Below are positions 56,908 through 64,000 of a stretch of DNA of 64,000 nt, piece after piece. Source of the DNA: Catenulispora sp. MAP5-51 (lineage in GTDB: Bacteria > Actinomycetota > Actinomycetes > Streptomycetales > Catenulisporaceae). The position numbers and the translations under genes were made by a program. The stretch covers positions 124,001 to 188,000 of the forward strand of contig NZ_JBGCCH010000017.1 in NCBI RefSeq assembly GCF_041261205.1, written 5' to 3'. Each line of letters opens with the position of its first letter. The stretch's first letter is position 1. The notes below the pieces were generated by a model. That model saw nothing but the letters and a program-made list of their open reading frames with translations. It was not told the DNA's origin and made no database searches.

Positions 56908-57513
56908 TCAGGCGGGGCCCTCGTTCGACGGTCCCGCCTCGCCCGGCTTGTGCCAACGCGCCACCACCGAGCCGTGCTTGTTCCGTCCGACCAGGCGGAC
57001 GTGCAGCACCTCCGGCGTGCCGTCGTCGGGGTTGGTGATGTCGACGCCGCCGTGGCGCACCGACAGCTCGTTGGCGTCCACCGTCATGCCCGGGCCGAGC
57101 AGGAGCGTGACGCCGTTGCCGCGTCCGCGCATCTCGATGATCAGCTCGGGCCCGCTGCGCACGGCGCTGGTCAGGTCCAGCGTGATCGGGCACCACAGCG
57201 TGCGCAGCACCAGCCGGTGCGGCAGCTTCCACCGGCCCTCGCGGCGCACCGGGCCGTGCTTCTCGCGGATCCTCACCACTTCTCCGGCCGAAGCCGCCGG
57301 CGCCGGGGCCACGCCGGCCCCGGGCTCCAGGTCCGCGGTCAGCGGCGCCAGCGCCTCGAAGGTGCGCGCCGTCAGCGCCGTCTCCACGCGCTCGTCGTAC
57401 TCCGCGGGGTCGAGGCGGCCGTCGCTCACGGCGGCTCGCAGCGTGTCGATGACTCGGTCGCGGTCCGCGTCGGAGGCGCGCAGCACAGGCTGCTTGGCCG
57501 GATCGGTCGACAT
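56908..57513 (-). CDS. DUF1707 domain protein
   Basis: This 201-residue protein has the DUF1707 N-terminal motif [25 protein letters not shown], continuing [19 protein letters not shown] beta-rich C-terminal domain ([10 protein letters not shown]-like strands, [18 protein letters not shown]) resembles cell-wall-active antibiotic response (LiaF-type) domains. Such proteins are common in actinobacteria and may take part in envelope stress or as SHOCT-like oligomerisation units. No membrane helix is seen here, so it is probably cytoplasmic. It is convergent with the exporter genes. Confidence 0.85.
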
Positions 57514-57631
57514 GCGGGCTCCCCCTGGACGGCAGTGGTGACGACCTTCACGTTATATCGCAATCAGGCCGCCGGTCGCAGGAACCGAACCCGCGCGACG
57601 TGCCGCCCGGGCCGCGGGCGACAATGGGTGC

Positions 57632-58060
57632 ATGACCGACGAAGTCGCCACCCCCGCCCTGGACCCCGCGATCGCCGCCCGGCTCAAGCGCGACGAGCAC
57701 GGCTTGTTCGCCGCCATCGCGCAGCAGCACGACACCGGCGAGGTGCTGATGCTGGCGTGGATGGACGACGAGGCGCTGCGGCGCACGCTGGCCACCGGCC
57801 GGGTCACGTACTGGTCGCGCTCGCGCCGGGAGTACTGGACCAAGGGCGACACCTCGGGGAACGTCCAGGTGCTGAAGGCGGCCGCGGTGGACTGCGACGG
57901 CGACGCGGTGCTGCTGAAGGTGGAGCAGAGCGGCGGCGCGTGCCACACCGGGGACCGGACGTGCTTCGACGCCGGGGAGCTGCCGCTCGGCGCGGCCTCA
58001 AGCGCGGGCGCGGACTCGGCGTCGGCGGTGCGCGCGCCTCTGGGAGAATCGGCGGCATGA
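57632..58060 (+). CDS. hisI: Phosphoribosyl-AMP cyclohydrolase
   Basis: This 142-residue zinc enzyme opens the adenine ring of PR-AMP, the third step of histidine synthesis. Metal-binding motifs are [14 protein letters not shown] with three Asp and [12 protein letters not shown] with the zinc Cys. [19 protein letters not shown] is the substrate region. HisE is not fused. The last ~20 residues are an Ala/Ser extension. It is separated from hisF by about 9.6 kb of transport and repeat DNA. Its TGA overlaps the trpE ATG, tying histidine and tryptophan genes together. Confidence 0.95.
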
Positions 58061-59607
58061 CGGCCTTCCCCCCAGGGGTGGACACCCCGGACCTGCCGAC
58101 CTTCCGCGAGCTGGCTCAGGACCGCCGGGTGATCCCGGTGGTACGGCGGGTGCTGGCCGACGGCGAGACGCCGGTCGGGCTGTACCGAAAGCTCGCCGGT
58201 GAGCGTCCCGGCACCTTCCTGCTGGAGTCGGCCGAGCACGGCATCTGGTCGCGGTACTCCTTCGTCGGCGTCAGCACCGGCGCGGCGCTGAGCGAGAAGG
58301 ACGGCGCGGCGCACTGGATCGGCGAGCCGCCGGTCGGGCTGCCGGCCTCCGGCGACCCGATGGACGTGCTGCGCCAGACCCTGGAGCTGCTGCACACCCC
58401 GCGCCTGCCGGGGCTCCCGCCGCTGACCGGCGGGCTGGTCGGGTACATGGGCTACGACGCCGTGCGCCGCCTGGAGCGGATTCCGGAGCTGGCCAAGGAC
58501 GACCTGCAGATCCCGGAGCTGACCTTCCTGCTCAGCCTGGACCTGGCGGTGCTGGACCACGCCGACGGCTCGGTCTGGCTGATCGCCAACGTTTTGAACC
58601 ACGACAACCTGCCCACCGGCGTCGAGGCGGCCTACGCCCGGGCCGTGGAGCGGCTGGACGCGATGACCGCCGCGCTGAACGAGCCGATGGTCAACACCCC
58701 GGTGGTGTACGACCCGGCGGTGGCGCCGGACTTCAGCGCCAACCGCACCCCGGAGGACTACCGGGAGACGGTGCTGCGCTGCATCGAGGAGATCAAGTCC
58801 GGCGAGGCGTTCCAGATCGTGGTGAGCCAGCGCTTCGAGGCGCCGGTCGAGGCCTCGGCGCTGGACGTCTACCGGGTGCTGCGCGCGACGAATCCGAGCC
58901 CGTACATGTACCTGCTGCGGGTCCCCGGCCCCGACGGCGGCGCCGAGGGCGGCTTCGACATCGTCGGCTCCTCGCCCGAGGCGCTGGTGAAGGTCACCGA
59001 GGGCCGCGCGATGCTGCACCCGATCGCCGGCACCCGCCCGCGCGGCGCCGACCCCGAGCAGGACGCGCAGCTGGCCGCCGACCTGCTGGCCGACCCCAAG
59101 GAGCGCGCCGAGCACCTGATGCTGGTCGACCTGGGCCGCAACGACCTGGGCCGGATCAGCCGCCCGGGCTCGGTGGAGGTCGTGGACTTCATGGCGGTCG
59201 AGCGCTACAGCCACGTGATGCACATCGTCTCCACGGTCATCGGCGACCTGGCCGAGGGCAAGACCGCCTTCGACGCGGTCACCGCCACCTTCCCGGCCGG
59301 CACCCTGTCCGGTGCCCCGAAGCCGCGCGCCATGGAGATCATCGAGCACAACGAGCCGACCCGCCGCGGCCTGTACGGCGGCATCGTCGGCTACCTGGAC
59401 TTCGCCGGCGACGCCGACACCGCCATCGCGATCCGCACCGTGCTGATCCGCGACGGCGTGGCCTTCGTGCAGGCCGGCGCGGGGATCGTGGCGGACTCCG
59501 ATCCGTTCGCGGAGGACCAGGAGTGCCGGAACAAGGCGATGGCCGTGCTGAAGGCGGTCGCGGTCGCCGGCACGATGCGGTCGGCGGTGGGAGAGGGTGC
59601 GCGGTGA
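58057..59607 (+). CDS. trpE: Anthranilate synthase component I
   Basis: This 516-residue enzyme makes anthranilate from chorismate, with ammonia from TrpG. The N-terminal feedback region includes [17 protein letters not shown], whose LLES matches the Trp-binding motif. The C-terminal chorismate-binding domain has [58 protein letters not shown] and [10 protein letters not shown]. No trpG or trpD is present in the window. Overlaps with hisI and the next membrane protein gene are 4 bp each. Confidence 0.97.
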
Positions 59608-60347
59608 GTACGGGAACTGAGAAGGGCGGGGTTGTGAAGGCCAGTGCTGTGAAGGGCGATGCGTCGGCTGCCGATCCCGCCCCGGCCCGCCGCAACAACC
59701 GCCGCGAACTGAGCCTCGTCGTCCTGCTGGCCCTGCTCGGCGGCATCCTCGCCTGGGCCGCGGCCGGCCGCCCCTGGGCCGCCGCGACCGTCGGCCAGGC
59801 GCCGAACACGCTCAAGGTCTCGGCCAGCGGCAACGACCTGTCCGCCGGCGTCACCGCGCTCGGCCTCACGGCGCTGGCCGGCGGCCTGGCGCTGTTCGCC
59901 ACGCAGCGGCTGGCGCGGCGGCTCGTCGGCGTGCTGCTGATCGCGGCCGGGATCGGCGCGGCGGTCTACGCCTTCGGCGAGCGCGGCACGAGTCATGCGT
60001 CACATGTCCTGGCCGACAAGGCCGCCACCAAGGGCTACGCGGCCGGGCAGGTCGCCGCGCACACGGCCTCCTGGTGGATCCTCGCGGCGTTCGGCGGGGT
60101 GCTGGTCGTGCTGGCCGGCGCGGCCACCGTCGTACGCGGTGCGACCTGGCCCGGGATGTCTTCGCGCTATGACAACGCCGCGACCGGGGCGGCTGCCGCG
60201 CGGGTCGTCGACCCCGGCAGTTCCAAGGACCTGTGGGACGCCCTGGACCGCGGCGAGGACCCGACCGGCGGCCCCGCCGCGGATCCGGCCGGCGGCCCCG
60301 CCGGGGCGGCCGCGCCGGTCAGCACCACCCCGCGTGCGGAGCATTAG
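59604..60347 (+). CDS. Trp biosynthesis-associated membrane protein
   Basis: This 247-residue membrane protein has four predicted helices, at about residues 36-55, 80-97, 105-123 and 155-178, with [20 protein letters not shown] first. It matches the family of membrane proteins embedded in actinobacterial trp operons (TIGR02234/PF09534). Function is unknown; a role in tryptophan or anthranilate transport or enzyme anchoring has only been guessed. The C-terminus is Gly/Ala/Pro-rich. GTG 59604 overlaps the trpE stop. Confidence 0.9.
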
Positions 60348-60401
60348 GCCGAATCGGTGACAATGGATGCGCCTGAATCACCTGTAAGTGCTAGGAGCAC
60401 C

Positions 60402-60608
60402 ATGTCGTCATCTTCCGGTGAGGACCACGGCAGCACCCCGGCTGCCTGGACCGCTGTCTTCCTCTGCATCATCGGCTTCCTGATCGGCGGCGCGGGCCTG
60501 GTGTTCGCCGTGCCGGCGGCGGCCATCGTCGGCGGCGGGATCGCCGTGATCTCCCCGATCGTCGGCAAGGCCATGTCCGCGATGGGTCTGGGCGCGGTCG
60601 CCAAGTAG
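60402..60608 (+). CDS. HGxxPAAW-family small membrane protein
   Basis: This 68-residue protein has two hydrophobic helices (VFLCIIGFLIGGAGLVFAV and AIVGGGIAVISPIVGKAM). It carries the motif HGSTPAAW that names an actinobacterial family found beside trp genes. The start ATG 60402 is chosen because AGGAG lies 6 nt upstream; in-frame codons further upstream lack this. Its function is unknown, but its place between trpE and trpC is conserved in streptomycetes to my recollection. Confidence 0.88.
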   Translation: MSSSSGEDHGSTPAAWTAVFLCIIGFLIGGAGLVFAVPAAAIVGGGIAVISPIVGKAMSAMGLGAVAK

Positions 60609-60687
60609 TCGCACCAGCTCGCACCAACCCGCACCGGGCCCGCAACGGCCCCGGGAACGGGTGCCGGACCTGCGGATCCGTACGCTT

Positions 60688-60721
60688 CGGAGCCCGCCGC
60701 GCAGTGTCGCGGCGGGCTCCG
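60688..60721. terminator. Stem-loop terminator before trpC, 14-bp perfect stem
   Basis: CGGAGCCCGCCGCG at 60688-60701 pairs perfectly with 60708-60721 around CAGTGT. It lies between the HGxxPAAW gene and trpC, so trpE and trpCBA are probably separate or partly separate transcripts, with the trpC promoter between about 60730 and 60850. Confidence 0.8.
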
Positions 60722-60864
60722 CGTTCGTCCCACCAGAAGATCACTGGACTTCGGAGACCCTCCGGAGCCGCTAGAGTGAGACGTCGGACACCCTCCCCAC
60801 CCGGTCGTACTCGGGGCGGGGTCGTCCGTCTGTCTGGTGTGGCGATCGAGGGGAGCTGACGACG

Positions 60865-61689
60865 GTGAACGTACTTGCCGAGATCATCGAAGGCGTCCGC
60901 CTCGACCTTGCCGAACGCCAGGAGAAGATCAGCCTGGACGACCTCAAGGCCCGGGTGGCGCGCATGGACAGCGCCATCGACGGCGTCGAGGCGCTGCGCC
61001 GCGGCGGAGCCGGCGGCGACGGTGTGAAGGTGATCGCCGAGGTCAAGCGCTCCTCGCCGTCCAAGGGCGCGCTGGCCGCGATCGCCGACCCCGCGGGCCT
61101 GGCCGCCGACTACGAGGCCGGCGGGGCCACCGTCATCTCCGTGCTCACCGAGCAGCGCCGCTTCGGCGGCTCGCTGGCCGACCTGGACGACGTGCGCAAG
61201 AAGGTCGACATCGCGGTCCTGCGCAAGGACTTCATCGTCACCAGCTACCAGCTGTGGGAGGCCCGCGCGCACGGCGCCGACCTGGCGCTGCTGATCGTGG
61301 CCGCGCTGGAGCAGCCGGCGCTGGAGTCGCTGATCGAGCGCGCCGTCTCCATCGGCCTGACCCCGCTGGTCGAGGTGCACGACGAGGAAGAGGTGCGCCG
61401 CGCGCTGGACGCCGGCGCCCGCCTGGTCGGCGTCAACGCCCGCGACCTGAAGACCCTCGAGGTCAAGCGCGACACCTTCGCGCGGCTGGCCCCGCTGGTC
61501 CCGGACGACGTCGTGCGCGTCGCCGAGTCCGGCGTGCGCGGCCCGCACGACCTGATCGCCTACGCCAACGCCGGCGCCGACGCGGTGCTGGTCGGCGAGT
61601 CGCTGGTGACCGGCAAGGACCCGCGCGCCGCGGTCGCCGACCTGGTCGCGGCCGGCGCGCATCCCGCGCTGCGGAACGGGCGCGCCTGA
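60865..61689 (+). CDS. trpC: Indole-3-glycerol phosphate synthase
   Basis: This 274-residue TIM barrel closes the indole ring from CdRP. Catalytic segments are [13 protein letters not shown] with Glu and Lys, [20 protein letters not shown] with Lys, [10 protein letters not shown] with Glu, and [12 protein letters not shown]. The second Glu is in RVAESGVRG and phosphate is held by LVGESLV. The start GTG has GGGGAG about 11 nt upstream. It is a separate protein, not fused to TrpF, consistent with PriA supplying that step. Confidence 0.97.
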
Positions 61690-61719
61690 GCGCCCGGTGA
61701 GACGGTAGAGTCCAGCATT

Positions 61720-61806
61720 GTGATGTCGAGCAAGCCCCGGGCCGCGGCCCGCCGCCGTCCCTGGTGGCGGCACGCCCCGGCGGCGCGCCGATGGCAGGAA
61801 GCGTAG
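61720..61806 (+). CDS. Short Trp-rich ORF in the trpC-trpB gap (possible leader peptide or TrpM/TrpX-like)
   Basis: GTG 61720 (or ATG 61723) opens a 27-28-residue basic peptide, M(M)SSKPRAAARRRPWW..., with adjacent Trp codons at 61762-61767 and a third at 61792-61794. The TAG stop lies in the loop of a hairpin (61797-61818), 51 bp before trpB. Alternative pairings exist upstream: GGGCCGCGGCCC at 61739-61750, and CCGCC with GGCGG around the Trp codons. This could be a translated attenuator sensing charged tRNA-Trp, or a degenerate relative of the small gene known between trpC and trpB in streptomycetes. There is no clear T-tract. Confidence 0.55.
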   Translation: MMSSKPRAAARRRPWWRHAPAARRWQEA

Positions 61807-61818
61807 TCGCCCGCTTCC
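61797..61818 (+). promoter_or_regulatory. Hairpin enclosing the short ORF's stop before trpB
   Basis: GGAAGCG at 61797-61803 pairs with CGCTTCC at 61812-61818. The short ORF's TAG (61804-61806) is the first triplet of the loop, so a ribosome terminating there would melt the stem. Confidence 0.5.
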
Positions 61819-61857
61819 GTCATAGCTGTACACATCACATATCACCGGGACATCTCC

Positions 61858-63170
<1,313 letters not shown>

Positions 63171-63174
<4 letters not shown>

Positions 63175-63980
63175 ACCGGCTCCAGGATGTGCTCAAGAGC
63201 GCGCGGGCGGAGAACCGCGCCGTCCTCATCGGCTACCTGCCGGCCGGCTACCCGTCCGTGGACGGCTCCATCGACGCCATGCGCGCCATGGTCGAGGGCG
63301 GCTGCGACGTCATCGAGGTGGGCCTGCCGTACTCCGACCCGGCGATGGACGGCCCGGTCATCCAGGCCGCCGCCGACCAGGCGCTGGCCCGCGGCGTGAC
63401 CACGGCGGACGTCATCCGCGCCGCCGGGGCCGTCGCCGACACCGGCGCGGCCGCGCTGATCATGTCGTACTGGAACCCGATCGAGCACTACGGCGTCGAC
63501 CGCTTCGCCGGGGAGCTCGCGGCGGTCGGCGGCAGCGGCGTCATCACCCCGGACCTGATCCCGGAGGAGGCCGGCCCCTGGATCACCGCGACCGACGCCC
63601 ACGACGTCAGCCGCGTGTTCCTGGTCGCCCCGAGCTCCACCCCCGAGCGCATCGCGCTGACCGCCGAGGCTTGCAACGGCTTCGTCTACGCCGGCGCGGT
63701 CATGGGCGTCACCGGCGCCCGCGACCAGGTCGGCCACTCGGCCCGGGCCCTGGTCGAGCGGACCCGGCAGGCCACCGACGCCCCGGTGTGCGTCGGACTC
63801 GGGGTCTCCACCGGCGACCAGGCCGCCGAGATCGCCGCCTACGCCGACGGCGTGATCGTCGGCTCGGCGTTCGTGCGGCGGCTGCTGGACAACCGCGACC
63901 CGCGCACGGGCGTGGACGCGGTCCGGGAGCTGGCGGCCGAGCTCGCCGACGGCGTGCGGCGGGGGAGCAAGGCGCGGTAG
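63171..63980 (+). CDS. trpA: Tryptophan synthase alpha subunit
   Basis: This 269-residue TIM barrel splits indole-3-glycerol phosphate into indole, which is channelled to TrpB, and glyceraldehyde 3-phosphate. The catalytic Glu is in [12 protein letters not shown] near residue 48 and the catalytic Asp is in the same motif near 59. Other landmarks are [28 protein letters not shown] and [10 protein letters not shown]. The GTG start overlaps the trpB stop. It is the last complete gene in the window; the final 20 bases show nothing further. Confidence 0.98.
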
Positions 63981-64000
63981 CGGTCCGCCCCGATCGTGCA

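Follow-up and report, generated by a model that had tools for sequence, protein, structure and literature searches.

The short open reading frame (uORF) between trpC and trpB of Catenulispora sp. MAP5-51 is one of four types of small frame found in this slot among actinomycetes, all of which carry near the stop codon an in-frame Arg-Trp pair spelled CGA-TGG and followed by C or T. We estimate at roughly 0.55 the probability that the uORF is a short translated regulatory frame in which CGA-UGG would sense Trp-tRNA and with which an internal trpBA transcript, often leaderless, begins, and we infer from the sequences that it may regulate trpBA. The preliminary description of this DNA had proposed an unusual internal attenuator. 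What stands of that proposal is a conserved, translated-looking frame directly before trpBA with its own promoter-like box, while a classical switch is not supported; nor is the slot unique, since Streptomyces trpM (trpX) occupies the same position.

The window, by which we mean the whole stretch of 64,000 nucleotides analysed, comes from a genome of 10.9 Mb (G000). Its tryptophan cluster runs in the order hisI (which we take to be hisI from its sequence), trpE, a TIGR02234-like membrane protein, an HGxxPAAW protein, trpC, the uORF, trpB, and trpA. On the forward strand, trpC (60865–61689; NF001369, 438 bits) ends with a stop codon at 61687–61689, and trpB (61858–63174; TIGR00263, 593 bits) starts with ATG at 61858. 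The uORF occupies 61720–61806 of the same strand with 28 codons from a GTG, or 27 from the ATG at 61723, and a TAG stop at 61804–61806, which leaves 51 nt to the trpB ATG. It encodes the basic peptide MMSSKPRAAARRRPWWRHAPAARRWQEA, with a Trp-Trp pair (codons at 61762 and 61765, together 61762–61767) and a third Trp codon at 61792–61794. These coordinates confirm the frame of 27–28 residues with a Trp-Trp pair and a third Trp, 51 nt before trpB, from which the preliminary description started. The trpE gene, the only one of three matches to the trpE model in the genome that passes the cut-off, most likely begins at ATG 58057 within the hisI stop codon. Thus, there is no room for a leader directly before trpE, and the uORF is the only Trp-codon control site noticed in the cluster from hisI on. 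The membrane protein between trpE and trpC (window 59604–60344) scores 65.6 bits against TIGR02234, just below the cut-off of 71.15.

Judged from the window alone, the Trp content of the uORF is not unusual. Among 785 ATG or GTG readings of 8–40 codons in the window, 13 contain two adjacent Trp and three or more Trp in all. These 13 include both starts of the uORF itself and, among the others, some readings nested within a shared frame. A TAnnnT box 6–8 nt before the start was found in four of the 785 readings, of which only the uORF contains Trp. The uORF rises above chance because of this box, placed 8 nt before its GTG, and because of the comparative evidence. A search of 394 genomes of the class with the 21-residue core gave 321 genomes with a match at E up to 1, of which only the locus itself stood out (5.9e-6, the next being 0.0018); the remainder was taken as noise. 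A 14-nt pattern tried as a marker had matches in 85 of 100 relatives, too many to be of use.

Within the family the uORF is constant. It is present in the trpC–trpB slot of 10/10 Catenulispora genomes (that of the window and nine others) and of 4/4 other family genomes sampled, and the nine same-genus and four same-family genomes carry a core like RAAARRRPWWRHAPAARRW. Conservation of the Trp codons, on which the preliminary description had let its proposal depend, was found, all three being kept in 14/14 Catenulisporaceae loci. Up to the third Trp, these 14 loci offer 20 codons for comparison; the third position varies in 16 of them and the first and second in four each, and pN/pS is 0.050/0.433 = 0.12 when codon pairs meeting a stop are skipped; in the other two frames of the same DNA the pattern is reversed. 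These substitutions indicate that the reading frame is under purifying selection. The sequence signs of translation to be looked for in a leader ORF with Trp codons thus appear to be present. In one Catenulispora locus (L012), a repeat with 31-nt inverted ends lies inside the uORF, and the frame stays open through it to the Trp codons. This repeat (L012:2772–2997, genome G003) is about 226 nt long, its inverted ends are 87% complementary, and it looks like a MITE. Related stretches are found in the genome of the window at C6:144898, C18:8257, C7:132783, C15:31617, and C3:603825, and relatives are present in all three Catenulispora genomes searched.

For comparison beyond the family, 265 loci were examined, and both trpC and trpB could be parsed in 238 of them. 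Ninety of these, gathered by the marker CGATGG, carry a uORF (14 Catenulisporaceae, 10 Actinomadura-type, 22 Nocardiopsis-type, and 44 Streptomycetaceae loci) and 148 do not, the latter including L169, L179, and L180, in which CGATGG was judged to be chance. Among the 27 unparsed loci are L117 and several from Streptomyces that are truncated at the end of a contig. The labels Actinomadura-type and Nocardiopsis-type were taken from L154 and L156, and the ten Actinomadura-type loci include the f3 locus L023. Where several CGATGG occurred (L020, L025, L043, L053, L168, L201, L231, and L257), one was picked by hand; of the trpB starts, six were assigned manually or by rule and the rest by a first-ATG rule. 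The loci without a uORF mostly have short gaps, with a median of 81.5 nt to the trpB motif vs 356 nt in the carriers. In family f17, 29 of 53 parsed loci carry a uORF; when the gap from trpC to the trpB motif is at least 130 nt, 29 carry it and three (L040, L281, and L291) do not.

The four types differ in length. The Catenulisporaceae uORFs have 28–32 codons and three Trp (103 codons and four Trp in L012), the Streptomycetaceae TrpM frames about 50–105 codons as called with a single Trp in 43/44 loci, and the Actinomadura-type uORFs 11–20 codons with one Trp, as in MLSEPLRERWRAYPILIQHG. In the Nocardiopsis type, whose start codons are uncertain, Arg-Trp is followed by one further codon and then TAG in 18/22 loci. 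The four peptides have little in common beyond Arg-Trp, and it is CGA-TGG-C/T near the stop that they share. The Trp-Trp pair, in contrast to its presence in 14/14 Catenulisporaceae loci, occurs in none of the 44 Streptomycetaceae and 10 Actinomadura-type uORFs. By this comparison of sequences, what is deeply conserved is not the Trp-Trp pair but the third Trp, within CGA-TGG-C. Across the 90 loci, the distance to trpB is 54 to 416 nt from the Trp codon and 30 to 392 nt from the stop, and the zero-frame stop precedes the trpB start in 90/90. Two further products were considered and rejected. A second, trpB-coupled ORF from the ATG inside CGATGG had frames spread over all three possibilities in each group, and its peptides were unconserved; for a conserved +1-frame product the stops were scattered, with the +1 frame passing the trpB start in 51/90 loci and the other shifted frame in 39/90.

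In the window, the heptamer CGA-TGG-C (Arg CGA, the third Trp, and a pyrimidine) lies at 61789–61795, and the base after TGG is C in 88 and T in two of the 90 uORFs. Since these 90 were gathered by CGATGG, the 90/90 for the hexamer itself is by construction; the counts free of this marker are those from a protein pattern and from TrpM proteins found by an NCBIfam model. With the protein pattern, CGA precedes the conserved Trp in 47/48 TrpM (a 49th hit, L257, was judged spurious and excluded) and in 14/14 Catenulisporaceae, and C follows in all 61 CGA cases. The NCBIfam-model sample, in which seven of the genomes had already been read earlier, gave CGA in 30/30 and the following C in 30/30. Elsewhere, CGA accounts for only 9/120 Arg codons preceding Trp (4/43 in this genome and 5/77 in other loci), and the base following Arg-TGG is C in 35/120. 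In a smaller count with other filters, CGA preceded TGG in 3/20 cases in window ORFs and in 1/5 in trpC/trpB. Elsewhere in TrpM, Arg is encoded by three to six codons at each of seven positions (six invariant, one 42/44), whereas the Arg before Trp is CGA in 44/44 of this set, which was chosen by CGATGG. That CGA is fixed while the other TrpM Arg codons vary indicates a constraint on the nucleotides and not on the amino acid alone. The one case of CGG rather than CGA before Trp is L117 (G129:C26), where a Streptomyces-like TrpM precedes the second of the trpB copies of an f17 genome.

TrpM/TrpX of Streptomyces (SCO2038; NF047334) is the closest known counterpart by position, as it lies in the trpC–trpB slot with an in-frame CGA-TGG-C near its 3′ end and is preceded by a TAnnnT box in 23/44 loci and in eight more of the second sample. 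As proteins the two are different: the TrpM family model has 43 positions and its members one Trp in 43/44 loci, whereas the window peptide has 28 residues, three Trp, and no match to the model at E up to 10 (cut-off 50 bits). The same model matched 0/10 Catenulispora genomes, 0/4 other family members, and 0/1 f3 genome, vs 181/182 Streptomycetaceae genomes (f2). The literature on TrpM, in the portions available, describes a trans-acting protein and not a Trp-codon uORF.

The box before the uORF (TAGAGT, 61706–61711, forward strand) resembles a −10 element and may belong to an internal promoter. A TAnnnT 6–8 nt before the start was found in 13/14 Catenulisporaceae, 10/10 Actinomadura-type, 23/44 Streptomycetaceae, and 0/22 Nocardiopsis-type loci, against a background of 20 among 6579 other ATG or GTG codons across the 90 loci. 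In the second sample of 30 TrpM it was present in 8 and missing in 22. In all 46 loci with a boxed start, this start is in frame with the CGA-TGG of the last Trp codon, although the distance from start to CGA ranges from 12 to 294 nt among the 23 of these 46 loci listed. The box and its spacing are consistent with a leaderless mRNA. No consensus sigma-70 promoter was found near the uORF. A search of the window's own genome for the box and GTG with a 7-nt gap gave one unrelated match; the 8-nt spacing in the window lies outside this pattern.

A hairpin is predicted at 61791–61823 of the forward strand, with arms at 61791–61803 and 61812–61823 and −17.2 kcal/mol, and the TAG stop indeed falls within its 8-nt loop, as the preliminary description had noted; the Trp-Trp pair sits at a GC-rich predicted stem. 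Taken alone, the window hairpin is unremarkable (z −0.9). The mean folding z after CGATGG is −1.56 in Catenulisporaceae, −1.2 in Actinomadura, −2.26 in Nocardiopsis, and −1.11 in Streptomycetaceae. In the comparison of the genus hairpin (eight of ten given, with seven distinct sequences; L015 and L016 were excluded because the aligner misplaced their loop insert), 93.7% of cells are paired and the changes are one-sided only, which is explained by a 5′ arm that is coding and invariant. At the position tested, a complete 8-bp partner is present in 16/22 Nocardiopsis-type loci, vs 0/14 Catenulisporaceae, 0/10 Actinomadura-type, and 2/44 Streptomycetaceae loci. Since the Nocardiopsis-type arm after the stop occurs in eight different sequences and shuffling gives only 5.8% partners, the Nocardiopsis-type hairpin covaries.

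The proposal that a stalled ribosome would switch between alternative stems at the Trp codons found no support. There is no intrinsic terminator with a U-tract in 61640–61900, the changes in the genus hairpin are one-sided, and the pairing comparisons revealed no conserved competitor stem to the hairpin. Matched combinations of the Trp-Trp region and the trpB start region paired no better (mean −12.97 kcal/mol) than mismatched ones (−13.42 kcal/mol). For a helix joining the 5′ end of the mRNA to the sequence ahead of trpB, matched sequences gave about −9.5, shuffled ones −7.2, and other 11-mers of the uORF −9.5, with L021 omitted; this helix is not claimed. Pairing of CGAUGG with a CCAUCG at the Actinomadura-type trpB start was also rejected, as L259, from the same genus and without a uORF, has the same trpB start. 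A search of 57000–64000 against Rfam gave four matches up to E 10, all far below the cut-offs, and no T-box. In Streptomyces loci such as L032–L034, the trpB Shine-Dalgarno stretch CCGTGAGG has a complement, save for one mismatch, in a CCCCACGG that recurs about 45 nt upstream of trpB; this possible sequestering stem was seen by eye.

Related leaders are known from actinomycetes. In S. lividans, the available text of PMC8079986 describes leaderless short ORFs with Trp codons before Trp-related genes, trpL1 before trpE and trpL2 before trpS, and trpL2 contains only one Trp and lacks a U-rich stretch; these leader ORFs lie before single genes, whereas the window uORF is internal between trpC and trpB. 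The S. lividans RNA-seq data as given there list eight leader peptides, and trpM is not among them (PMC8079986). The classical trp attenuators of Corynebacterium and Streptomyces likewise combine a short leader ORF containing Trp codons with hairpins after it, but according to the sections at hand of PMC1262725 their terminators are GC-rich with poly-U, and a gGCC-rGCy-GGCC pattern is conserved among them; no terminator was found at the window uORF. The same source places candidate attenuators before trpB1EDGC and trpB2A in Corynebacterium diphtheriae (PMC1262725). In the accessible portions of the open-access literature on TrpM and on attenuators before trp operons, trpE, and trpS, we found no Trp-codon uORF family at the trpC–trpB junction and no CGA-TGG context; a paper of 2015 to which PMC4833913 refers, and which deals with tryptophan-dependent attenuators of Actinobacteria, may overlap with the present results.

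In the sensing reading that we favour, a ribosome would read Trp at CGA-UGG and would pause there when Trp-tRNA is scarce. The paused ribosome could cover the 5′ arm of the following hairpin or alter termination, and the expression of trpB and trpA would change. The added Trp-Trp pair in Catenulisporaceae would make the uORF more Trp-dependent. Against Trp sensing, a single Trp codon is, in our judgement, a weak sensor by classical standards, and the box is missing in 21/44 Streptomycetaceae, 22/22 Nocardiopsis-type, and 22/30 further TrpM loci.

A more specific proposal, which we regard as speculative, is that CGA_UGG_C/U is itself a codon-context sensor. A weakly paired Arg codon in the P site would heighten the sensitivity to scarce Trp-tRNA at the next codon, and Trp hunger would cause a very strong pause or, with the Gly codon GGC or GGU in the +1 frame, a +1 shift past the nearby stop. 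These two ideas could explain the fixed CGA and the pyrimidine. The Trp-codon uORFs upstream of trpBA would then belong to a single family, for which a lone Trp codon can be sufficient and of which Streptomyces trpM is an extended member. Both GGC and GGU should be read by tRNA-Gly(GCC), which is present in this genome. Decoding of CGA by inosine only was rejected, since among the 59 of 60 tRNA places examined there are two tRNA-Arg(ACG) but also a tRNA-Arg(TCG), which weakens the argument from inosine-only reading. An accessory-looking compact tRNA array at G000:C6:234900–235450 (L333) contains Trp-CCA, Asp, Arg-TCG, and Cys; its model scores are below those of most other tRNAs, and it supplies a tRNA that reads CGA directly. 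The +1 heptamers of yeast Ty1 (CUU_AGG_C) and Ty3 (GCG_AGU_U) are similar in that a slow A-site codon follows a shift-prone or poorly paired P-site codon, and Ty1 has GGC in the +1 frame as at the uORF site. According to the part of PMC5009743 available, GCG of Ty3 can be replaced by CGA, slowness of the A-site codon has a greater bearing on +1 shifts, and abundance of the tRNA-Gly for GGC is important in Ty1. The yeast sites differ in that no conserved +1 product is found at the uORF, and the same part of PMC5009743 mentions no shift at CGA_UGG_C.

Among the alternatives to sensing at the uORF, the one that survives best, though we hold it to be improbable, is that the peptide acts in trans like TrpM of S. 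coelicolor, a small basic protein modulating Trp precursor supply, and that its position reflects operon organisation only. According to the available text of PMC5036795, replacement of trpM by a cassette makes growth on minimal medium slower, a defect that trpM supplied at another site complements, trpBA is said to be expressed independently, a polar effect is excluded by the authors with reference to unshown RT-PCR, and the S. coelicolor trp genes are not repressed by Trp. The lack of Trp repression and the complementation in trans favour a diffusible TrpM product. TrpM is moreover conserved as a protein, the window peptide is basic and under purifying selection, and a trp leader peptide of Sinorhizobium is described as having a trans role (PMC7298713, in the portion available). 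The proteins pulled down with TrpM are reported to include the ribosomal proteins S1 and S2. We note that the trpM replacement would have removed the heptamer too and that the cassette could itself drive trpBA. A protein function leaves the fixed synonymous CGA and the fixed pyrimidine after TGG unexplained, the window peptide has no NF047334 match, and the four types, of which the Actinomadura type has only 11–20 residues, are little alike beyond Arg-Trp.

Still less probable is a translation-loading or coupling element, in which translation of the uORF would hold the region accessible or supply ribosomes to trpB, with no sensing of Trp. The zero-frame stop before the trpB start in every locus is in line with it, and in the section at hand of PMC4833913 short leader genes near structural genes of Actinobacteria are proposed to aid reinitiation. 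The variable distance from stop to trpB, the unfixed frame relation to trpB, and the shared Arg-Trp with fixed codons, which coupling leaves unexplained, argue against it. We consider it unlikely, more so than coupling, that CGAUGGC/U is an RNA element for some bound partner and the reading frame secondary. The heptamer is nearly fixed at the nucleotide level, and UGGC/U could pair with the acceptor end of a tRNA-Trp with G73, the likely discriminator base in L313; against this, it is in frame in 46/46 loci where the start was placed independently, the frame is under purifying selection, no Rfam T-box match is near, and no constant paired partner was seen. Finally, chance or decayed sequence without function, as Trp-rich small ORFs that are not rare in the window and a hairpin z of −0.9 would allow, is contradicted by the conservation and in-frame tests and is most improbable.

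If the sensing reading is true, TrpM, a studied but puzzling protein, and the mini-ORFs of other actinomycetes would be members of one cis-acting tryptophan-sensing family, in which one Trp codon would be enough when its codon context is fixed. The uORFs also offer a simple test of whether an attenuation signal can lie in codon context instead of in repeated codons.
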